Assembly (NCBI GenBank): GCA_025922795.1 | Contig: JAICHC010000086.1 | Span: 1 to 8,406, forward strand | Direction: 5' to 3' | Length of the DNA stretch: 8,406 nt | Source: Candidatus Binatia bacterium | Lineage (GTDB): Bacteria; Desulfobacterota_B; Binatia; UBA9968 | Shown here: piece after piece, positions 261 through 8,406 of the stretch | Layout: every line of letters starts with the position of its first letter | Position numbering within the stretch: the stretch's first letter is position 1 | The notes under the pieces: model-generated | Told to the model about the DNA's origin: nothing | Database searches by the model: none | The model's input: the letters and a program-made list of their open reading frames with translations, nothing else | Program-made: the position numbers and the translations under genes

Positions 261-1187
261 CTATTTCCCGAGGGTCGCCAGCGCCTTCTGATAAAACCGC
301 TCATCGATATATTTTTCCGGCCTCGGCACGGGCGCTTTCATCAAGCCAGCGATTTCGCGCAGCTCGAGGACGGTGCGGATGCCGTCCATGTCGATGCGGC
401 TGCGCGGTGTCAGTCCCAGAGTGGGACTTAACGCTTGCCTATACATCGATTCGGCGCGGGCTTGGTTATTGTTGGTCGCGCCCGACAGAACCTGAATGAC
501 TTCTGCCTTGTTGGTCGGCGTTTGCAACCAATCGCTAGCGCGGATCATCGCTCGGACAAAGCGCACGACGATATCCTCGTTTTTATTCGCCCATTCTCGG
601 CGCGTTGCACCGAGACCGCGGGCATAGTGCTTGACGTAGTCCTGAGCCTCGGCGAGCGCTTTGAAGCCGCGTTGGTGAATTTCCTCGTCCGCCAGGCTCA
701 TCATTGCCGCGGCCGCTTCGCCCCGGCTCATGGCATCGGCCCGCGCCGTGGTATTGCCGAAGGCTTTAAAAGTGTAGTCGCGATTCCATTCCAGCCCGTG
801 TTTTTTCATAATGTAAACGCCGACGATGGCATAGCCGGTGGTCGGCGCGTCGACCGCGAAAATTTTGCCTTTGAGATCGCCGTAGCCGTTGATCCCGGGG
901 GCGACCACGAGTTTTTGATCAACGCCCTGGCTGCCGCCCAGGAAGATGACGAAATCATTTTTCTGCGGGTCCTCGCCTTGGCCCTCGGCCCACGCGATCA
1001 CGTTGTCCGCGTTGTTCAAGATCAAATCATATTGGCCGCTGATCAGATTGCGCAATAGCGTCGGCGAGTCGGTCACGGTGTTGATTTCGACACGTAGATT
1101 TTCTTGCTTGAGAAAACCTTTAGCTTCGGCGGCGATGATCGCCGCATCGCGATTAAATAAACCGATTTTAATTACATTTTCAGGCAT
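261..1187 (-). CDS. NMT1/SsuA-type ABC substrate-binding protein without signal peptide
   Basis: This 308-residue protein has the fold signature of NMT1/THI5/SsuA-like periplasmic binding proteins. Residues 5-10 form the first strand, followed by the helix that starts the ligand cleft; IxGQYDL lies near 49-55. The hallmark DLKGKIFAVDAPTTGYA (104-120) opens the second lobe, and a FxALxEAQD-type segment lies at 175-183. Family members normally carry a Sec signal or lipoprotein signal of 20-30 residues. Here the ATG is followed almost at once by mature domain sequence, and an in-frame TAG (1206-1208) lies seven codons upstream, so no leader can be hidden there. The ATG at 1187 has no clear Shine-Dalgarno and follows a hairpin (1199-1216). 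No permease or ATPase is adjacent; it is last in a minus-strand series after the actin module, 69 bases from its neighbour. It may bind its ligand in the cytoplasm, have lost its leader, or serve an enzymatic or sensory role. The ligand cannot be deduced. Confidence 0.88.
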   Translation of the reverse strand: MPENVIKIGLFNRDAAIIAAEAKGFLKQENLRVEINTVTDSPTLLRNLISGQYDLILNNADNVIAWAEGQGEDPQKNDFVIFLGGSQGVDQKLVVAPGINGYGDLKGKIFAVDAPTTGYAIVGVYIMKKHGLEWNRDYTFKAFGNTTARADAMSRGEAAAAMMSLADEEIHQRGFKALAEAQDYVKHYARGLGATRREWANKNEDIVVRFVRAMIRASDWLQTPTNKAEVIQVLSGATNNNQARAESMYRQALSPTLGLTPRSRIDMDGIRTVLELREIAGLMKAPVPRPEKYIDERFYQKALATLGK

Positions 1188-1256: not shown

Positions 1257-1601
1257 TTAATTCGTCTTGATCCGCTTGGACAACCGGACCCCCCGATGAT
1301 TGGCTTGCTCGGCGATCGGATCGAGAACGGCCGTCAAGGTCTTCCGCAATGTTTGCAGTGATTTGTCGAGCTCGCCGCGGATGTCTTGAGTCGTCTGAAA
1401 CGCTTCGTGCAAGATCTCTTGCTCGTGTTGCTCTTTGATGGCGACCAGGATCCGCTCGCGCGCTTTGTCAAGGGCGCTGCGGCGCCGTTTGCTGGCGCTA
1501 AAGGACGGGGCAAGGCTGCATATGAGAATCCCGCCCGCGATGCCGGCTGAGAACAGCAAAACGTCGGAAATCCAGTCGCCGATTTTCGACCTCATGTTCA
1601 T
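1257..1601 (-). CDS. small single-pass membrane protein with charged helical tail
   Basis: I do not recognise a family. The 114-residue product starts at ATG 1601; a TTG one codon earlier (1604) or an ATG two codons later (1595) are alternatives, and none has a strong Shine-Dalgarno. Residues 11-31 form one hydrophobic, glycine-rich transmembrane segment containing one Cys. It is followed by KRRR (38-41), which by the positive-inside rule favours a cytoplasmic C-terminus. Residues 42-95 are rich in E, K, Q, R, L and A without proline and look like a long amphipathic or coiled-coil helix. The last 15 residues are basic. The gene lies 76 bases downstream of the MamK-like actin gene on the same strand with no visible terminator between them. 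A membrane anchor or adaptor for that filament is a plausible role, inferred only from location and architecture. A DUF-type ATP-synthase-b-like or YtxH-like stress protein would look similar. Confidence 0.65.
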   Translation of the reverse strand: MNMRSKIGDWISDVLLFSAGIAGGILICSLAPSFSASKRRRSALDKARERILVAIKEQHEQEILHEAFQTTQDIRGELDKSLQTLRKTLTAVLDPIAEQANHRGVRLSKRIKTN

Positions 1602-1677
1602 CAAGACTCAAGCTCGAGAAGATGACTCGGTATGCACCTAAAGCTGAGAAGACGTTTCCTTCGATCCGATGGGTGTT

Positions 1678-2700
1678 TCAGAGGGATAATTGGTCCCAAT
1701 CCGACGCCGACGCATCGCGGGCAATCGCGAGGCTGCCGTCGGAACCGGTGAAAACCGGATCGATCACCGCTGTTGCGCGCCCGCCGCCCGTGTCTCTAAG
1801 CATTTTGGTGATCGCCTGCGGCAATCCAGACATAAGCGAAGTCCCACCCGCCAGAATGACATTGTTGCGCATTTTAACCCGATATTCGGGCTCGACTTGC
1901 GCCAGCAAGCCTGTCAGAGTCTCGCAAATAGGTCCCAGAATACTTTCGCAAGCGGAGCGCATTTCCTTGGTAATGTCGATTTCAGCCGCTTTCGCCATGA
2001 TTGGGACCTTGACGATCACGCGATTTTTGGGTTCGCCGACGAAGCTATGTTGTTCCTTCCACTCGCGCACCATGTGAATAGAAAATTGCGCGTCCGGGTG
2101 CCGCTCCCGAATCAGCTTCATCAGTCGCGTGTCGATCGAATCACCCGCATTGGGGAGCGTTTTTTGATCCTCTTCAGTGGGGTAGCGCCCTTGCATAACG
2201 CAAAAATCAACCGTTCCAGCGCCGATGTCGATGACCAAGGCGTCCGCCAGAGCCTCGAGACCGTAGGCCACGGCACAGGGTTGCGAGACCATCATGACGC
2301 TGTCGGCGAGGCCGGCCATGGCGCTGCGCAAGTTGTGGCGGTTTACGCGAAACGCTCCTGTGGGAACGCCCACCACGGCGCGCACTTTCGATTTCTTGTC
2401 CCCGGTTTCGACCAGGGATATTAAATGACGCACCAATTCCCGAACCGCTTCTAGATCTTTCTCCGATCCGTCTTTGGTGACGGCATGTTCGAGTGGGCGG
2501 TGCAGATCCAATAGGGGGCGGTTGTCGAGCGCATCGCGGCCGACAAGCACGGGTTTTGTGATCAATTCACGCGCATCGGCATCGACCGGCCAGCCCACGT
2601 AACTATCGACGACATGGCGCTCGCCGTTGCAAGCCGAAAGGGAGCTGCGCGAGGTACCGAGATCTATCCCGACGTAAATTATAACGCGGCGATCTTCTAT
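1678..2700 (-). CDS. MamK-like bacterial actin (filament-forming ATPase), atypical AUA start
   Basis: This is an actin-fold ATPase expected to polymerise in the cytoplasm. Read from 2700 it has 340 residues, close to MamK. Motifs in order are phosphate-1 GIDLGTS (11-17), VVGVPTG (109-115), phosphate-2 VIDIGAGTVDF (156-166), KEQHSFVG (215-222), EPEY (270-273) and the adenosine motif ILAGGTSLMSGL (282-293). The KEQ-SFVG, PEY and C-terminal DPVF-G--G-L-IA segments match magnetosome MamK more closely than MreB, ParM or DnaK, by recollection of MamK sequence. The first ordinary start, GTG 2598, would delete phosphate-1, so it cannot be the true start. Upstream in frame there is no ATG, GTG or TTG before TGA 2706-2704. 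The best candidate is ATA 2700-2698, seven bases after GGAAAGGGG (2716-2708) and overlapping the amidase stop as ATAG. ATT 2679-2677 is a weaker option. The residue aligned with the MamK catalytic Glu is Gln140; Asp158 is kept. Translational coupling to the amidase is likely. Confidence 0.88.
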   Translation of the reverse strand: MEDRRVIIYVGIDLGTSRSSLSACNGERHVVDSYVGWPVDADARELITKPVLVGRDALDNRPLLDLHRPLEHAVTKDGSEKDLEAVRELVRHLISLVETGDKKSKVRAVVGVPTGAFRVNRHNLRSAMAGLADSVMMVSQPCAVAYGLEALADALVIDIGAGTVDFCVMQGRYPTEEDQKTLPNAGDSIDTRLMKLIRERHPDAQFSIHMVREWKEQHSFVGEPKNRVIVKVPIMAKAAEIDITKEMRSACESILGPICETLTGLLAQVEPEYRVKMRNNVILAGGTSLMSGLPQAITKMLRDTGGGRATAVIDPVFTGSDGSLAIARDASASDWDQLSL

Positions 2701-3701
2701 CGATCAACCCCTTTCCAATCGGCGAGCCGGAGACTTTTGGCATAAGTCCGAATGCCTTTGGCCAGGGCCTCGGCGATATTTTCGCGATAGTGTTCCGTTG
2801 CCAACAACTCGGCTTCCTCCCCGTTGGAAAGAGAGGCGATTTCCACCAATATGGCGGGCATCTGCGTGCCGATCAAGACCACGAATGGCGCTGTTTTAAC
2901 GCCGCGATTCTCCAGTTTGGGATTGCTCGTTTTAAGCGAACGAAACAAATGGTTCTGGATGGTGTGAGCCAGCGCGCGCGACTCGTTGCGGCGCACGTCA
3001 ACGTAAATTTTCTCGAGGATTTTTTTGTAATCTGAGAGCGAATAGCCGGAGTCCGAATTTTCCCGGCTGGCCAGCCGGAGGGTGGCGGCGTTATCTGCCG
3101 GGCCGACATAAAAAGTCTCTAGCGCCCGGATCGAGTGGGGTTCCATCCAGTTCAGATGAATCGACAAAAACAAATCCGCCTGGTTCTCGTTGGCAAATTT
3201 GACACGTTTGTCGAGCGACATCCATCGGTCGGTTTCGCGGGTCAGCAGCACTCTAAACGGCGCTTCTTCCAAAACACGCCGCAGGCGCAGAGCAATATCG
3301 AGAGTAAGCTCTTTTTCCGTGAGCCCTGATTCGGAGGTGGTGCCAGGTTCGCCGCCGTGGCCGGGATCGATCACGATGGTTTTGATCGAAAACGGAATAG
3401 TCCCCGGAACGATCGGCCGCGGGTGAGCAAGAGGATTCGCTGTTGCGACGTCGAGTTGGTCCAAAGCGGCGGCTTGTCGAGCGGGCGCGGCGCTCAGCGT
3501 CGGTGTGTCGGCTTTAGGAATTACCGATAAAATCACCATCAACGAAGTCGTTGCGGCGGCGATTGAACCGGTCCATAACCAGAACCAGTTCCGGCTTTTG
3601 TCCCTCTTGACGGGCGTGACCCGCACGTCCCGGCGCACATTCAGGTTGTCTTGGACAATGCTGCGTAGCAGCTGGGCCTTGGTTTCGTCAATGCTGGCCA
3701 T
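2697..3701 (-). CDS. membrane-anchored N-acetylmuramoyl-L-alanine amidase (Amidase_3)
   Basis: This zinc amidase cleaves the bond between N-acetylmuramic acid and L-alanine in peptidoglycan. From ATG 3701 it has 334 residues: a charged cytoplasmic tail (1-38), one transmembrane helix (about 39-61, WFWLW to VILSV), a proline/alanine-rich linker (62-105) and the catalytic domain (106-325). Zinc ligands are His115 in IDPGHGG, Glu129 in GLTEKE and His182 in LSIHLN; the catalytic Glu is Glu287 in VEIASLSN. AmiA/AmiC-type enzymes are normally exported; this one is a type II membrane protein that retains a cytosolic tail. An upstream in-frame TTG (3767) lies inside the preceding terminator stem and is rejected as start. 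ATG 3701 lacks a good Shine-Dalgarno but sits a few bases downstream of a candidate promoter, so the mRNA leader may be very short. The TAG stop (2699-2697) overlaps the proposed actin start. Cell separation or wall remodelling is the likely role. I see no LysM, SPOR or AMIN domain. Confidence 0.93.
   Translation of the reverse strand: MASIDETKAQLLRSIVQDNLNVRRDVRVTPVKRDKSRNWFWLWTGSIAAATTSLMVILSVIPKADTPTLSAAPARQAAALDQLDVATANPLAHPRPIVPGTIPFSIKTIVIDPGHGGEPGTTSESGLTEKELTLDIALRLRRVLEEAPFRVLLTRETDRWMSLDKRVKFANENQADLFLSIHLNWMEPHSIRALETFYVGPADNAATLRLASRENSDSGYSLSDYKKILEKIYVDVRRNESRALAHTIQNHLFRSLKTSNPKLENRGVKTAPFVVLIGTQMPAILVEIASLSNGEEAELLATEHYRENIAEALAKGIRTYAKSLRLADWKGVDR
2708..2716 (-). promoter_or_regulatory. 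Shine-Dalgarno deciding the actin start
   Basis: The minus strand reads GGAAAGGGG here, inside the last codons of the amidase gene. Seven bases separate it from the ATA at 2700-2698, which is ideal spacing. No other initiation codon in the actin frame lies within reach, so this site is the main argument for starting at 2700 rather than at GTG 2598. Confidence 0.55.
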
Positions 3702-3753: not shown

Positions 3754-3774
3754 AAAAAATCTGCCAAACGGCAG
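3754..3774 (-). terminator. intrinsic terminator after the UbiD-family gene
   Basis: On the minus strand CTGCC and GGCAG pair perfectly around the loop GTTT, followed by A and six T residues. It lies 24 bases beyond the UbiD-family stop codon and before the amidase promoter. It therefore divides the minus-strand genes into a metabolic unit (amidohydrolase, UbiD) and a cell-wall/cytoskeleton unit. The stem is only five pairs but GC-rich. Confidence 0.75.
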
Positions 3775-3797: not shown

Positions 3798-5168
3798 CTA
3801 CTTCGCGAACTGCGGCAGGAAGTCTTCCAGCCGAATTTTTTTCATGACTTCGTCGGGCACTCTGAGCTCGGGGGCGAAACCGGTCAGAGGTTTGGTGGCG
3901 TCGATGCCCATCTTGGTGTTGATGCCGCCGGGCCCGGCTGAAGGATCGAGCTCGCTGCCTTGCGCATTCGGAATCACGACTAGGCCGCGATCGGCTTGGA
4001 AGCGGTTCGATACCGCCCAAAGCACCTGTTCCTCATCGAACACGTCGATGTCCTCGTCGACGACCACGACATGCTTGAGCAGCATGTCCGAGGCGAAAGC
4101 GGCGCAAATGGCATTCTTCGCTTGGCCGGGGGTCCGCTTGGCGATCGATATGTAGGCATGAAAGCGGCAATTGCCCGACACCGGCATACAGACGTTTTTC
4201 ACGGTCGGCACGGTTTGACGCACGGCTTTGATCAGCGCCGCTTCACGCGGCACCGCACCCATCAGCTTATGCTCGGTGTAGCCGGCGTGTACGTCCTGAA
4301 AAATATAGTTCTTGCGGTGCGTGACGGCGGTTACCTCGATCACCTGCCGTTCGTCCTTGGACACGGCGTGGCCGGTGAATTCGCCGAAAGGGCCTTCTTC
4401 GCGGCGAACATTGGCGAGGATTTTACCTTCGATCACCATCTCGGCGTCGGCGGGGACTAGAATCGGCACCGTCTTCGCTTTCACGACGCGCAGGGCTTCG
4501 CCGATCATGCCGCCGATGACCGCGTACTCGTCGTCCGTCGACGGCGTGAAGGCTTGCGCGCCGAGGGAAAATAGCGGATGCACGCCGATGACGACGGCGA
4601 TCGGTAGCGGCTCGTTGCGCCGCTCCATTTTGTTATGCAGTGTCCAAAGATGCCGGCCTACGGCCATAAAGATGCGCAGCTCGCGTTTGCGCGCCATCAT
4701 CAGCCGATTGTAGCTGGTGTTTCTCACGCCGCTGTCGGGATCGGCGGCGACGACGATGCCGGCGGTGATGTAAGGCGCCGCGTTGACATCGTAGTGGGTG
4801 AGCAGCGGAACTTTGGTTAAATCCACGTCGTCGCCGGTTTTGACCTGGTCGTGCACCGGCGCATTGTTCACTTCGACCGGCGCCAGCGGTTTGCCCTGAC
4901 GCTGGCTAAACTTCGCTGCCAGCTCCTCGGTTCGACATTCCAGCGCCAGCGCCATGAGCTTGCGGCTCGCTTGCGCGTTGATGACGACCGGTGCTTCGCT
5001 GCCGGCAACATTTTCGCAAAAAAGCAAGGGAAAACGTTTTTGCTTCTCCAACTGCGTGAGCAGAGCCGTGATCTCGTAACGCGGCGCGATCGGCTTTTTC
5101 ACCCGCGCCACTTCTTCGGGATACTTCGATTCCAGTTCGGCGATGAAACTGCGCAGATCTTTGGCCAT
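3798..5168 (-). CDS. UbiD-family prenylated-FMN-dependent (de)carboxylase
   Basis: UbiD enzymes add or remove CO2 on aromatic or alpha,beta-unsaturated acids using prenylated FMN and a divalent metal plus K+. The protein has 456 residues, a normal family length. It keeps N150-x4-R155 (NTSYNR) and His173, which align with the metal/cofactor residues N168, R173 and H191 of fungal Fdc1. It also keeps EGPFGEFTG (258-266), whose Glu258 and Glu263 have the spacing of the Fdc1 catalytic pair E277/E282. DEDIDVFDEEQVLWAVSNR (371-389) is a typical late UbiD segment. All key residues appear intact. The ATG at 5168 is 26 bases downstream of the amidohydrolase stop, so the two are probably co-transcribed; the Shine-Dalgarno is weak. 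No flavin prenyltransferase (UbiX) is in the window. The pairing with an amidohydrolase and a divergent importer suggests a catabolic rather than ubiquinone-biosynthetic role; the substrate is not identifiable. I therefore do not assign the name ubiD. Confidence 0.94.
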   Translation of the reverse strand: MAKDLRSFIAELESKYPEEVARVKKPIAPRYEITALLTQLEKQKRFPLLFCENVAGSEAPVVINAQASRKLMALALECRTEELAAKFSQRQGKPLAPVEVNNAPVHDQVKTGDDVDLTKVPLLTHYDVNAAPYITAGIVVAADPDSGVRNTSYNRLMMARKRELRIFMAVGRHLWTLHNKMERRNEPLPIAVVIGVHPLFSLGAQAFTPSTDDEYAVIGGMIGEALRVVKAKTVPILVPADAEMVIEGKILANVRREEGPFGEFTGHAVSKDERQVIEVTAVTHRKNYIFQDVHAGYTEHKLMGAVPREAALIKAVRQTVPTVKNVCMPVSGNCRFHAYISIAKRTPGQAKNAICAAFASDMLLKHVVVVDEDIDVFDEEQVLWAVSNRFQADRGLVVIPNAQGSELDPSAGPGGINTKMGIDATKPLTGFAPELRVPDEVMKKIRLEDFLPQFAK

Positions 5169-5194
5169 GCGGCTTACCGTTCAGAGCCGGAAAT

Positions 5195-6262
5195 TTACAG
5201 CGCGTAGAGCCGGCGCGGGTTATCGTCCAATATTTTTTTCTTGATCGGGTCCGTCACCAGTTCCGTCGCGCGGAAGATATCGATGGCGTCGACTTCACTC
5301 GACGCATCGGTGTGCCCGTAATCGGTGCCGATAACCAAATTGTCTTCGCCGGCGTAACGAAGCACGTAATCGAAATCGTCGTTGGTTTCGGTCGTGACGT
5401 AGATGTTGAAGTCCTTGAACGGCAGCTTGGGAAAGCCTTTGGTGCCGGTACGGCGGATCGCTTCTTTGACAACCCACGGCACCCACTGCGCTGAAGCTTC
5501 GACGAAAGCCCATCGGAGCTGCGGGAAAGTCTCGGGCACGTCGCTCATGATCAAAGAGAGACAGGTAATGACGGTGGGAATGCGGAATTGTGCGAAGCCG
5601 CCCATACGATCGTAACGCGGCTTGAACTGATCCATGAGTTGCGGACTGGCGTTGGCAATGTGGACCGCGACCGCGAGATTGAGCCGGGTCGCTTCCTCGT
5701 AAATCGGATAAAAATAGGGATCCACCAGGTGCTTGTCGTCTTCGAACGGGCGGAGACTCACCGCAACAGCGCCGTGCTCTTTGGCGAAGCGCATCTGCTG
5801 CAGCGCTTCGTCGATCGTCATCGCCGGAACCACGCACGACCAACGCAGCCTGTGTTTGCCCTGCTTCCAGACCTCGGCCATCCAGCGGTTCCACGATTTG
5901 CACAGAGCGATTTCCGGCTCGGCCTTGTCGGCGACGCGGGCGATCCACATGGTATTGAAGAGAATCTGCACGTCGATGCCGAGTTTGTCCATGTGCTTTA
6001 AGCGCAGCTCGACGTCGCGCAACTCGCGTGCCTCGGGAGCGGTCTTGAGCTCGCGCCCGGTTTCTTTTGAAAGCGCGATCAGCTCTTGCTCGGTCAAAGT
6101 CGGCGGGCGAAAGCCGATCGACTTTCCTTCGACGAACCAGTACTGCATGTTGGGATTGTCGTTAGAACTGAAAAGTTGCGGCCGGAATTTTTTCTCCGAG
6201 GCATCCAAAAAGTCCCACGTGTGCTCGGATTCAACCACGTGCGCGTCAGCGTCGACAATCAT
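5195..6262 (-). CDS. amidohydrolase_2 family metal-dependent hydrolase or decarboxylase
   Basis: The 355-residue product is a TIM-barrel metalloenzyme of the amidohydrolase_2 family, which includes ACMSD and gamma-resorcylate decarboxylase as well as C-C and C-N hydrolases. Seen motifs: DADAH at 4-8 (first-strand metal ligands) with Glu11; AVAVHIAN with His201; the FVEASAQWVPW segment (253-263); and IGTDYGHTD (311-319), where Asp314 should be the last-strand catalytic or metal residue. The C-terminal DDNPRRLYAL is the usual family ending. ATG 6262 has the best ribosome site in the window, GAGGAG (6274-6269) with six-base spacing. It is the first gene of a two-gene unit with the UbiD-family enzyme, and is divergent from the ABC importer genes across the palindrome-rich intergenic region. 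Conversion of a ring or carboxylic acid substrate is likely, but hydrolase and decarboxylase activity cannot be told apart from sequence. Confidence 0.93.
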   Translation of the reverse strand: MIVDADAHVVESEHTWDFLDASEKKFRPQLFSSNDNPNMQYWFVEGKSIGFRPPTLTEQELIALSKETGRELKTAPEARELRDVELRLKHMDKLGIDVQILFNTMWIARVADKAEPEIALCKSWNRWMAEVWKQGKHRLRWSCVVPAMTIDEALQQMRFAKEHGAVAVSLRPFEDDKHLVDPYFYPIYEEATRLNLAVAVHIANASPQLMDQFKPRYDRMGGFAQFRIPTVITCLSLIMSDVPETFPQLRWAFVEASAQWVPWVVKEAIRRTGTKGFPKLPFKDFNIYVTTETNDDFDYVLRYAGEDNLVIGTDYGHTDASSEVDAIDIFRATELVTDPIKKKILDDNPRRLYAL

Positions 6263-6586: not shown

Positions 6587-7456
6587 ATGGCCCCAGAGGA
6601 TAAAGTTCTTCCGATAATCGCCGAACGCGGCTCGCTTGCGGACGGAGACGCTGTGTTGCCGGCGGGCACCAAAGCGGCGGCGGGTTGGGAATTCGCGCAG
6701 TCCGCTGCTTTACGCATCGGATCGATTCTATCGATGATCCTGGTCTGGTGGGGCATGACTTATTTCTTTCCTCCCACTCTGATTCCCCATCCCATCGAAA
6801 CGCTAAGCGAGGTTGTCGCCATCATTGGCACCGGCGATTTCTTCTCCGAGATGGGCGCCACGTTACGGCGCGTCGGGGTTGGTTTCGCCATCGCCATATT
6901 GGTCAGTATTCCGCTCGGCATTCTCATGGGCACGATCAAGCCGTTGGAGCATTTTTTCGAGCCGCCGGTAATTCTTGGATTGACCATGCCCGGACTTATC
7001 TGGGCGGTCCTCGCGATCATGTTTTTCGGCTTGAATGAAACCAGCGCCTATGCCGCCGTGTCGATTACCATTTGCCCGATGCTGGCCATCAGTCTGTGGC
7101 AGGGCACCAAGTCCATTGACAAGGACTTGATCGACATGAGCACGGCGTTTCATGCCAGCCCTTGGTCCAAAGTGATCGATGTGATCCTGCCGCAACTGAT
7201 TTCGCATATTCTCGCGGCCATTCGCTACGGTTTGGGTCTTGCGTGGAAGGTTGTCGTCGTTGTCGAAATGTTCGGCTTCAGCAACGGGGTGGGTTACCAG
7301 GTCGTGCGCGGGTTCAATACCTTCTCGATGAAGGCGGTGCTGGCCTGGGCGATCACGTTTCTGATCGTGATGATCATCATCGAGTTCGGTTTCATCGGCT
7401 GGTTGGAAAGCCGGGTTACCCGTTGGCGCCCGAAAATTCAGGCGTGGAGGCGATAG
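6587..7456 (+). CDS. ABC transporter permease, SsuC/NMT1-associated type
   Basis: This inner-membrane channel subunit of a binding-protein-dependent importer has 289 residues from ATG 6587. Hydrophobic segments near 42-62, 96-116, 127-149, 153-172, 205-229 and 250-273 give the six-helix pattern of SsuC/TauC-like permeases. The EAA coupling loop is at about 183-202, ending VILPQL; His189 stands where the motif usually has Gly. The ATG has only an AGG two bases away as ribosome site. GTG 6653, 22 codons later, has GGAG at five-base spacing and would leave a more usual short cytoplasmic N-terminus before the first helix, so the real start may be there. The stop overlaps the ATPase GTG by one base. 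It pairs with that ATPase and with the exported binding protein at the window end. The substrate (sulfonate, nitrate, pyrimidine precursor or aromatic acid classes are all known) is not determinable. Confidence 0.94.
   Translation: MAPEDKVLPIIAERGSLADGDAVLPAGTKAAAGWEFAQSAALRIGSILSMILVWWGMTYFFPPTLIPHPIETLSEVVAIIGTGDFFSEMGATLRRVGVGFAIAILVSIPLGILMGTIKPLEHFFEPPVILGLTMPGLIWAVLAIMFFGLNETSAYAAVSITICPMLAISLWQGTKSIDKDLIDMSTAFHASPWSKVIDVILPQLISHILAAIRYGLGLAWKVVVVVEMFGFSNGVGYQVVRGFNTFSMKAVLAWAITFLIVMIIIEFGFIGWLESRVTRWRPKIQAWRR
7446..7450 (+). promoter_or_regulatory. Shine-Dalgarno fixing the ATPase GTG start
   Basis: GGAGG lies five bases before GTG 7456, inside the last permease codons. It shows that the ATPase starts at 7456 and not at an upstream in-frame ATG (7162), from which the translation is low-complexity nonsense within the permease gene. 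Confidence 0.85.
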
Positions 7457-8235
7457 TGGCGTACGTGCACGTGGAAAACGCCGTCAAATATTTTCCCCGC
7501 GAGGACGGTTCCAACATGCTCGTGCTCGACCGGGTTTCTTTCGATACCGAGGAGTTCGGCATCACCTGTCTACTCGGGCCATCGGGTTGCGGAAAGTCCA
7601 CTCTGCTCAACGCGATCTCGGGGCTCGAACGTCTCGACGGCGGCCGAGTGGAGGTCGTCTCCAACGGCCCATCGTCGCACCATCCATCGCCCCGCCTCGG
7701 CTACGTGTTCCAAGACGCGCGCTTGCTCAATTGGAAACGAGTGGAGGACAATCTTACTTTTGCTTTGAAGGGCATGAAAATCCCCCAAGCCGAATGGCCG
7801 GAGCGCTTGAACAAATATCTCGATCTGGTTGGACTTGCGGAATTCCGGAGCCAGTATCCACTCTATCTTTCGGGCGGCATGCGCCAGCGCGTCGGGTTGG
7901 CGCGCGGGTTAGTGATTGAACCGCAGGTGCTGCTGATGGACGAGCCGTTCAGCAAGCTCGATCAGTTGACGGCACGCCGCCTGCGCCAGGAAACTTTGCA
8001 GATCTGCGAGCGGTTAAGGCAGACCACGGTGCTCGTGACCCATGACGTCGAGGAGGCTGCTTACATGGGAGATCGGATCGTGATCCTGCGCGCGCGCCCC
8101 GCCCGCATCGTCGATATCTTTGAAAATCCGCTCGAGCCCAATCAACGAGACGTCGATGATCTGCAGTTTATTCAATTCAAAAAGACCCTGCTGCAAACGG
8201 TGCTCGAGTTGATAGAGAAGGAGGGGACATCATGA
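7456..8235 (+). CDS. ABC transporter ATP-binding protein, SsuB/TauB type
   Basis: This is the cytoplasmic ATPase that drives the importer. From GTG 7456 it has 259 residues. Walker A GPSGCGKST is at 41-49, the Q-loop VFQDARLL with Gln86 at 84-91, the signature LSGGMRQR at 138-145, Walker B VLLMDEP at 158-164, the D-loop SKLD at 166-169, and the switch His196 in LVTHDVEEA. All catalytic residues are present. The signature uses Met where LSGGQ has Gln, a frequent variant in the SsuB/TauB group. Its start overlaps the permease stop by one base (TAGTG) and its stop overlaps the next start as ATGA, so the three importer genes are translationally coupled in one operon. Confidence 0.96.
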   Translation: MAYVHVENAVKYFPREDGSNMLVLDRVSFDTEEFGITCLLGPSGCGKSTLLNAISGLERLDGGRVEVVSNGPSSHHPSPRLGYVFQDARLLNWKRVEDNLTFALKGMKIPQAEWPERLNKYLDLVGLAEFRSQYPLYLSGGMRQRVGLARGLVIEPQVLLMDEPFSKLDQLTARRLRQETLQICERLRQTTVLVTHDVEEAAYMGDRIVILRARPARIVDIFENPLEPNQRDVDDLQFIQFKKTLLQTVLELIEKEGTS

Positions 8236-8406
8236 AGAGCATTCCGCCATTGAGAAGTCTATGCGTGTTAACGCTGACCGCACTTTTCGCCGTAGTGACT
8301 GTGTACAAGAGCTGGTCCGCGGAATTGCCGACGATCGAAATCGGATTCCCGTCGGATGGTGTTTTTGGCTTGGGCGGCCAGTATCTTCTTGACAAAGGGC
8401 TTGACC
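8232..8406 (+). CDS. exported ABC substrate-binding protein, NMT1/SsuA-like, 5' part only
   Basis: Only the first 58 codons fall in the window; the gene runs off the right edge. The start is ATG 8232, overlapping the ATPase stop as ATGA and preceded by GGAGGGG (8220-8226) at five-base spacing. Residues 2-8 are basic, residues 9-24 are hydrophobic and WSA at 28-30 before ELP is a good signal peptidase I site, so this is a Sec-exported periplasmic protein. The mature start, PTIEIGFPSDG followed by GGQYLLDKGL, matches the first strand and helix of NMT1/SsuA binding proteins. It is the expected ligand-binding partner of the permease and ATPase encoded just upstream. Confidence 0.88.
   Translation, partial: MKSIPPLRSLCVLTLTALFAVVTVYKSWSAELPTIEIGFPSDGVFGLGGQYLLDKGLD

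Follow-up and report, generated by a model that had tools for sequence, protein, structure and literature searches.

Why would an actin of the MamK kind be encoded next to an enzyme that cuts the cell wall? The question is raised by an 8,406-nucleotide stretch of DNA (hereafter the window) from a Candidatus Binatia bacterium (GenBank assembly GCA_025922795.1, contig JAICHC010000086.1), in which genes for a membrane-anchored peptidoglycan amidase, a MamK-like actin and a small one-pass protein follow each other in that order, all on the minus strand. How cells choose the sites at which their wall is cut is only partly understood and, to our knowledge, there are few direct physical links between a cytoplasmic filament and a wall hydrolase. 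An earlier note, made from the letters of this DNA alone, had described the three-gene order and the single strand correctly, and had proposed that the filament positions or controls the hydrolase. The amidase-actin pair is kept across three phyla, and this conservation across genomes makes the pairing more than chance. The new element reported here is a conserved cytosolic helix of the amidase with an invariant Asn. We consider it moderately probable that the two genes form a dedicated cytoskeleton-to-wall module, in which the actin would bind the amidase tail and place or gate the enzyme.

An amidase-actin pair kept across three phyla

A first scan of genome contigs with an actin alignment yielded 21 loci, all 21 with a relative of the amidase directly upstream. 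Once duplicates were removed, the amidase was adjacent, upstream and on the same strand at 48 of 48 database loci whose actin scores over 370 bits (35 groups at 90% actin identity), with only part of it left by the contig end in L003 and L015. The recurring amidase neighbour that the earlier note had proposed to look for among homologues of the actin is thus present throughout this clade. A crude overlap rule passes 46 of the 48 loci, and L032 and L043 pass with a trimmed start (gap of -4). In the 46 loci where the gap between the two genes was measured (L007 and L088 were excluded), it ranges from -20 to +25 nt in 37 and from 26 to 250 nt in seven, and in two the genes seem to overlap by over 20 nt. 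Genome samples, drawn automatically and with labels of metagenome-assembled genomes that may be wrong, contained actins above 370 bits in 26 of 247 Acidobacteriota genomes and in nine of 145 genomes from the class of locus L001 (plus two partial matches); the actin was also found in two of 95 genomes from the phylum of a Rokubacteria genome, all these counts including the already known centre genomes. When the neighbours of 41 module loci were clustered, the actin was present in all 41 and the amidase in 37, and every other family in at most five.

Outside this clade, seven genomes (from the phylum of G002) encode actins of 271-345 bits with neither an amidase nor a neighbour carrying the tail motif in the surrounding 5 kb or so, where the contigs extend that far; three of these loci (L110-L112) are near-copies. 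Their surroundings vary: a 171 aa protein and a 648 aa protein that looks like FeoB by eye in L108 and L109, a 663 aa membrane protein and a helical protein in L110-L112, a membrane coiled-coil neighbour in L114 and, in L113, two actins around a membrane coiled-coil protein of 160 aa.

The amidase of the window (334 aa; 2697..3701, minus strand) consists of a cytosolic tail, a membrane helix, a Pro/Ala-rich linker and an Amidase_3 domain. It matches PF01520 at E 1.9e-48 (165.2 bits, against a gathering score of 27) and, with its membrane helix, is the membrane-anchored peptidoglycan amidase that the earlier note had taken it for. The transmembrane helix (residues 38-59; 3525..3590, minus strand) is a helix of the structure model, coincides with the hydropathy peak of the homologues and is preceded by basic residues, as judged by eye. 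From this architecture we infer that the tail lies inside and the enzyme outside. In the catalytic domain (residues 105-327; 2721..3389, minus strand), H115, E129, H182 and E287, which we take to be the zinc and catalytic residues, are invariant in 36 of 36 homologues. Since zinc ligands and catalytic Glu are kept without exception, hydrolysis appears to be under selection. An inserted segment of the domain carries E214-N215; E214 is invariant, and the segment aligns there with the EN of Bartonella AmiB (3ne8) and Escherichia coli AmiA (8c2o). The aligned residue of AmiB (E290 in our numbering) is presumably the Glu that blocks the zinc, so that the module amidase may likewise be autoinhibited and need a trigger. 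The amidases AmiA, AmiB and AmiC are secreted. They have a fold in common with the module amidase, which differs from them in being membrane-anchored and in bearing a cytosolic motif.

That motif is an N-terminal helix common to the module amidases, K-x-x-[LI]-[LIV]-x-x-A-[VI]-x-[DE]-N, after which come basic residues and then the membrane helix. In the window, homologue alignment, regular expression and structure model place it from K8 to N19 (3645..3680, minus strand), where it reads K-x-x-L-L-x-x-I-V-x-D-N; the model draws a helix over residues 4-24, with low confidence there (pLDDT about 70). All 45 alignment rows that reach the respective columns have the Asn, all 45 have a Lys or Arg, and the Asn is as conserved as the catalytic His; a separate conservation count of amidase homologues found N19 invariant in 36 of 36. 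The regular expression matches 43 of 49 module amidases, window included, but not one of 20 amidase paralogues from these genomes (the strongest non-module Amidase_3 matches, from 19 genomes), most of which start, by eye, with a signal-like hydrophobic stretch. Four of the six misses (L039, L044, L088 and L091) are without their N-terminus, and the other two (L086 and L090) keep the Asn with a changed D/E position.

The tail is also distributed with the actin. In the 247 Acidobacteriota genomes, all 25 matches to an amidase profile at 355 bits or more come from genomes that also have the actin. The tail is included in 24 of these matches; the remaining one (G409) stops short of it, cut by the contig end. 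The 26th actin-bearing genome, G400, has an incomplete amidase copy covering profile positions 147-329. The other matches listed for these genomes score at most 299 bits and start at profile position 39 or later, so none of them reaches the tail. Among the matches listed, tail-type amidases were therefore found only alongside the actin, in a comparison for which up to eight candidates were scored per genome and whose profile includes sequences of these same genomes.

What the pair may do

Because the tail is conserved and cytosolic, and no gene besides amidase and actin is constant, binding of the actin to the tail is the simplest reading. Cytoplasmic actin polymers would bind the cytosolic helix of the amidase, the tail would thereby tether the filament to the membrane, and the filament would cluster, place or switch the enzyme on the other side of it. 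The amidase might be held autoinhibited by the Glu of its inserted segment until triggered, and a clade-specific third membrane protein could add a second input, through a SPOR domain (stripped glycan), a PilZ domain (c-di-GMP) or a small helix protein. The whole would work beside, and not in place of, MreB and a standard amidase. Filament formation by the module actin is itself presumed, by analogy with MamK and BeeR only. The earlier proposal of a filament that positions or controls a wall hydrolase is thus supported in part: it gains a candidate link, the conserved amidase tail, through which binding would take place. More tentatively, and with less confidence than in the module itself, we propose that a MamK-lineage filament takes direct hold of wall hydrolases in the periplasm by their short cytosolic tail and that its assembly in the cytoplasm sets the site of the cut. 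Together with third partners that can be exchanged (SPOR, PilZ or the small helix protein), this would amount to a system of its own for morphogenesis or division, which the cell has in addition to MreB and the standard amidase. If so, magnetosome MamK would be related to an actin that partners the cell wall.

Two other explanations deserve attention. The pair might be co-transcribed for dosage or timing only, with the tail binding another cytosolic partner, for instance a divisome protein, or lying on the membrane as an amphipathic helix. Co-expression alone can maintain tight gene spacing, and the tail is a short helix whose hydrophobic positions are spaced out; simply lying on the membrane, however, needs no invariant Asn and Lys/Arg, and tail and actin co-occur in the Acidobacteriota sample, so we find this explanation rather unlikely. 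Equally, the amidase might serve mainly as a membrane anchor for the actin, the filament organising some other cargo (an organelle, a protein array or the chromosome) and the wall-cutting activity opening the mesh locally. The nearest relative, MamK, aligns magnetosome organelles (PMC10653835), a tail followed by a membrane helix would suit an anchor, and the module actins are short at the N-terminus, with no membrane helix evident by eye. Nevertheless, the presumed zinc ligands and catalytic Glu never vary among the 36 homologues, the 41 loci show no recurrent cargo gene next to the pair, and the SPOR partners of one clade suggest wall work; we judge this possibility unlikely.

Several observations weigh against a dedicated module in which the actin binds the tail. 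The regular expression and the profile of the tail were built from the same sequences on which they were counted, and the tail could bind a partner other than the actin. The correlation between actin and amidase distances (r 0.85, 29 loci) is one that joint inheritance alone would produce. Fusions of the two proteins would speak for contact, but a search with the window's amidase and actin joined into one query yielded no genuine fusion; the candidates P0198, P0199, P0258 and P0205 were rejected as such proof, as they hold long stretches that look frame-shifted, and Pfam recognises two domains in three of these four joined-query records. As SPOR, PilZ and small partners are each confined to one part of the actin tree, they are few independent events. 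Finally, the window's own copy may be an altered, atypical member of a well-kept family, because its actin opens without a standard start codon and its SEP motif reads Gln in place of Glu. Apart from these points, three Planctomycetota records annotated as 'MamK family actin-like protein' (P0233, P0257 and P0276) share 44-45% identity with the joined query across roughly half of it.

The kind of function proposed for the module is already known, from the FtsA-FtsN circuit and from the MreB isologues of Bacillus subtilis. In the former, FtsA, which has an actin fold, binds the one-pass protein FtsN on the cytosolic side, and the SPOR domain of FtsN binds amidase-stripped glycans (PMC8998562). 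Similarly, one module clade encodes an actin, a membrane amidase and a SPOR protein together; the difference is that the module amidase is itself anchored and has a conserved tail, that the actin is MamK-like and that the genes lie in one unit. In Bacillus subtilis, the wall hydrolases LytE and CwlO are controlled via MreB isologues and FtsEX (PMC3817527). The likeness is that of actin homologues controlling wall hydrolases, but those actins belong to a different family, and in the module the actin is paired with the gene of a tailed membrane amidase. An arrangement of an amidase with a MamK-like actin was not found in print in the searches made among open-licence PMC papers, judged by the titles listed. 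The pair, present in three phyla, offers its tail as a candidate link and, this tail being short, specific and mutable, it makes the question of how a filament reaches a hydrolase directly testable. It also suggests a likely role for a large group of MamK-like actins outside magnetotactic bacteria.

A MamK-related actin

The actin of the window (340 aa if the ATA at 2700-2698 is its start; 1678..2700, minus strand) has the actin fold with both phosphate-binding motifs. MamK is its nearest solved relative and also its best NCBIfam model (NF040964; 343.7 bits, E 9.5e-103), at a score below the cut-off of 400 bits of that model. Other models score lower: 202.3 bits for BeeR (NF053558, cut-off 530), 60.3 for the best MreB model and 18.3 for the best DnaK model. 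The cut-off of the MreB model NF010539 is 293, yet Pfam MreB_Mbl matches at 72 against 27. The best 120 database matches to the window actin are all at least 70% identical to it over the aligned part; one of the actin records, P0002 (455 aa), has an internal repeated segment and is probably an assembly chimera.

In a tree of 53 rows made with IQ-TREE, the 37 module rows (29 loci, the window and seven database proteins of unseen neighbourhood) fall on one side of a branch supported at 92/85, and 36 of them, without L056, at 99/99. This branch adjoins the MamK of AMB-1 together with the seven amidase-less actins (87/83), the single true MamK sitting on a branch flagged as long. BeeR falls outside module and MamK (93/94), also on a flagged long branch, and the placement of both MamK and BeeR is accordingly less sure. 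MreB proteins, including those of module genomes, lie far apart at 100/100. A standard MreB (469-511 bits) is present in 19 of the 20 module genomes tested, G014 being the exception. Non-module Amidase_3 proteins likewise occur in 19 of the 20 (absent from G005). At 14 positions, the 37 module rows are fixed to at least 92% and differ from all five amidase-less relatives compared. As to the DnaK/Ppx grouping that the earlier note had set as the alternative, the protein sides with MamK instead.

A displaced or remnant magnetosome gene, with the actin being MamK, is a highly improbable reading: MamK is indeed its nearest solved relative and best model, but the score is too low, the clade adjoins and does not join the single MamK of the tree, the constant neighbour is a wall enzyme, and no magnetosome family was recognised among the window genes with Pfam and NCBIfam, in line with what the earlier note had seen. 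The module side of the tree differs from the MamK of magnetotactic bacteria, its neighbouring branch, in its constant amidase neighbour. BeeR, from Verrucomicrobiota, has been published as a family of unknown function with a disordered N-terminal extension of 30-50 residues, and no amidase is named in the text of that paper ahead of its methods (PMC11929497). The window actin is without such an extension, its actin match starting at frame residue 8.

The beginning of the window actin is unusual. Its frame opens with TGA-TCG-ATA, the ATA overlapping the amidase stop as ATAG (2697-2706), and no ATG, GTG or TTG precedes the GTG at 2598, the first standard start codon. A start at that GTG would remove the first nucleotide-binding loop of the protein. 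Records of close relatives start at the position of the window's TCG, with L in P0003, V in P0004 and M in P0005, and P0006, 94% identical to the window actin, is recorded only from the later GTG position. The start in the window may thus be non-standard or lost. The overlap of actin and amidase genes claimed in the earlier note holds with the ATA as start (2700-2698, over the stop TAG at 2699-2697) and disappears with a standard start. Residue 140 is a second peculiarity, namely the Gln of an SQP in place of the Glu of the SEP motif. This Glu, which we take to be catalytic (neither E143 nor Glu143 is mentioned in PMC3346761, nor E143 in PMC2818848), is present in 161 of 169 actins; the eight others are the window and P0003-P0007 with Gln, L044 with Gly and a single actin that falls outside the pattern.

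Third genes and surroundings of the pair

The third gene of the window (1257..1604, minus strand), identified by homologues and adjacency as a clade-restricted member, encodes a small membrane protein of 115 aa from a TTG, with a charged helical tail. As the earlier note had stated, it is a tiny one-pass protein behind the actin, with one hydrophobic segment near the N-terminus (by eye); no Pfam family matches it above cut-off. It has 75 homologues at E of 0.001 or less, 11 of which have a longest contig as long as that of one of 116 listed actin records (shifted controls: mean 0.93, maximum 4). The small protein adjoins the actin only in the window, L001 and L003, that is, in two of 34 module genomes plus the window. 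Two other clades have different partners. A SPOR domain on the same strand lies 0.8-1.7 kb behind the actin in five of the 34 genomes (G011, G017, G218, G261 and G339), and the SPOR protein is the very next gene in L021 (G017, gap of 34 nt) and L141 (G218, gap of -4 nt). PilZ, a family of c-di-GMP-binding domains, follows the actin in at least three (G009, G012 and G363); in G401 it stands upstream of the amidase, outside this pattern. In the actin tree, the SPOR loci L011, L021, L032 and L037 share one branch and the PilZ loci L009, L012 and L055 another. The four third-gene partners checked in full (L012, L021, L141 and L150) have a strong hydrophobic segment between two parts. The role of membrane anchor that the earlier note had assigned to the small protein is therefore not general and, with a third gene that differs by clade, the amidase itself is the likelier general anchor.

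Some candidates were dropped on closer inspection. The PilZ proteins behind the actin in L012 (2432-3553), L150 (9033-10277) and P0228 combine PilZ with a hydrophobic segment and, at the C-terminus, a region that resembles AMIN by eye; Pfam confirmed PilZ alone in them, and the AMIN assignment was not kept. The apparent actin-PilZ fusion in P0228 seems to result from read-through past a frameshift. The small protein, too, has a conserved helix (such as EILHEAFQTTQD), which bears a faint resemblance to that of the amidase tail but is without the Asn. We do not claim the small protein as a mimic of the tail: its homologues average 1.8 with the tail profile, about two standard deviations (SD) above a background of -8.6 (SD 4.8), versus 32.2 for real tails, and similar scores are reached by helical proteins next to actins that have no amidase.

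Upstream, the earlier note had seen the unit bounded by a terminator and a promoter, which is at best half supported. A terminator-like hairpin with a T run does lie between the UbiD gene and the amidase (3761..3774, minus strand), but the scanned region holds four such hairpins against a shuffle mean of 3.6, hence no excess, and the scan of the region ahead of the amidase gave no sigma-70-like promoter. Relatives are encoded in none of the viral contigs searched. The flanks of the module (window positions 261-1187, 3798-6262 and 6587-8405) encode an NMT1-type binding protein, an ABC transporter, a UbiD decarboxylase and an amidohydrolase, and relatives of these flanking genes are present in four to five of the 41 module loci, window included.

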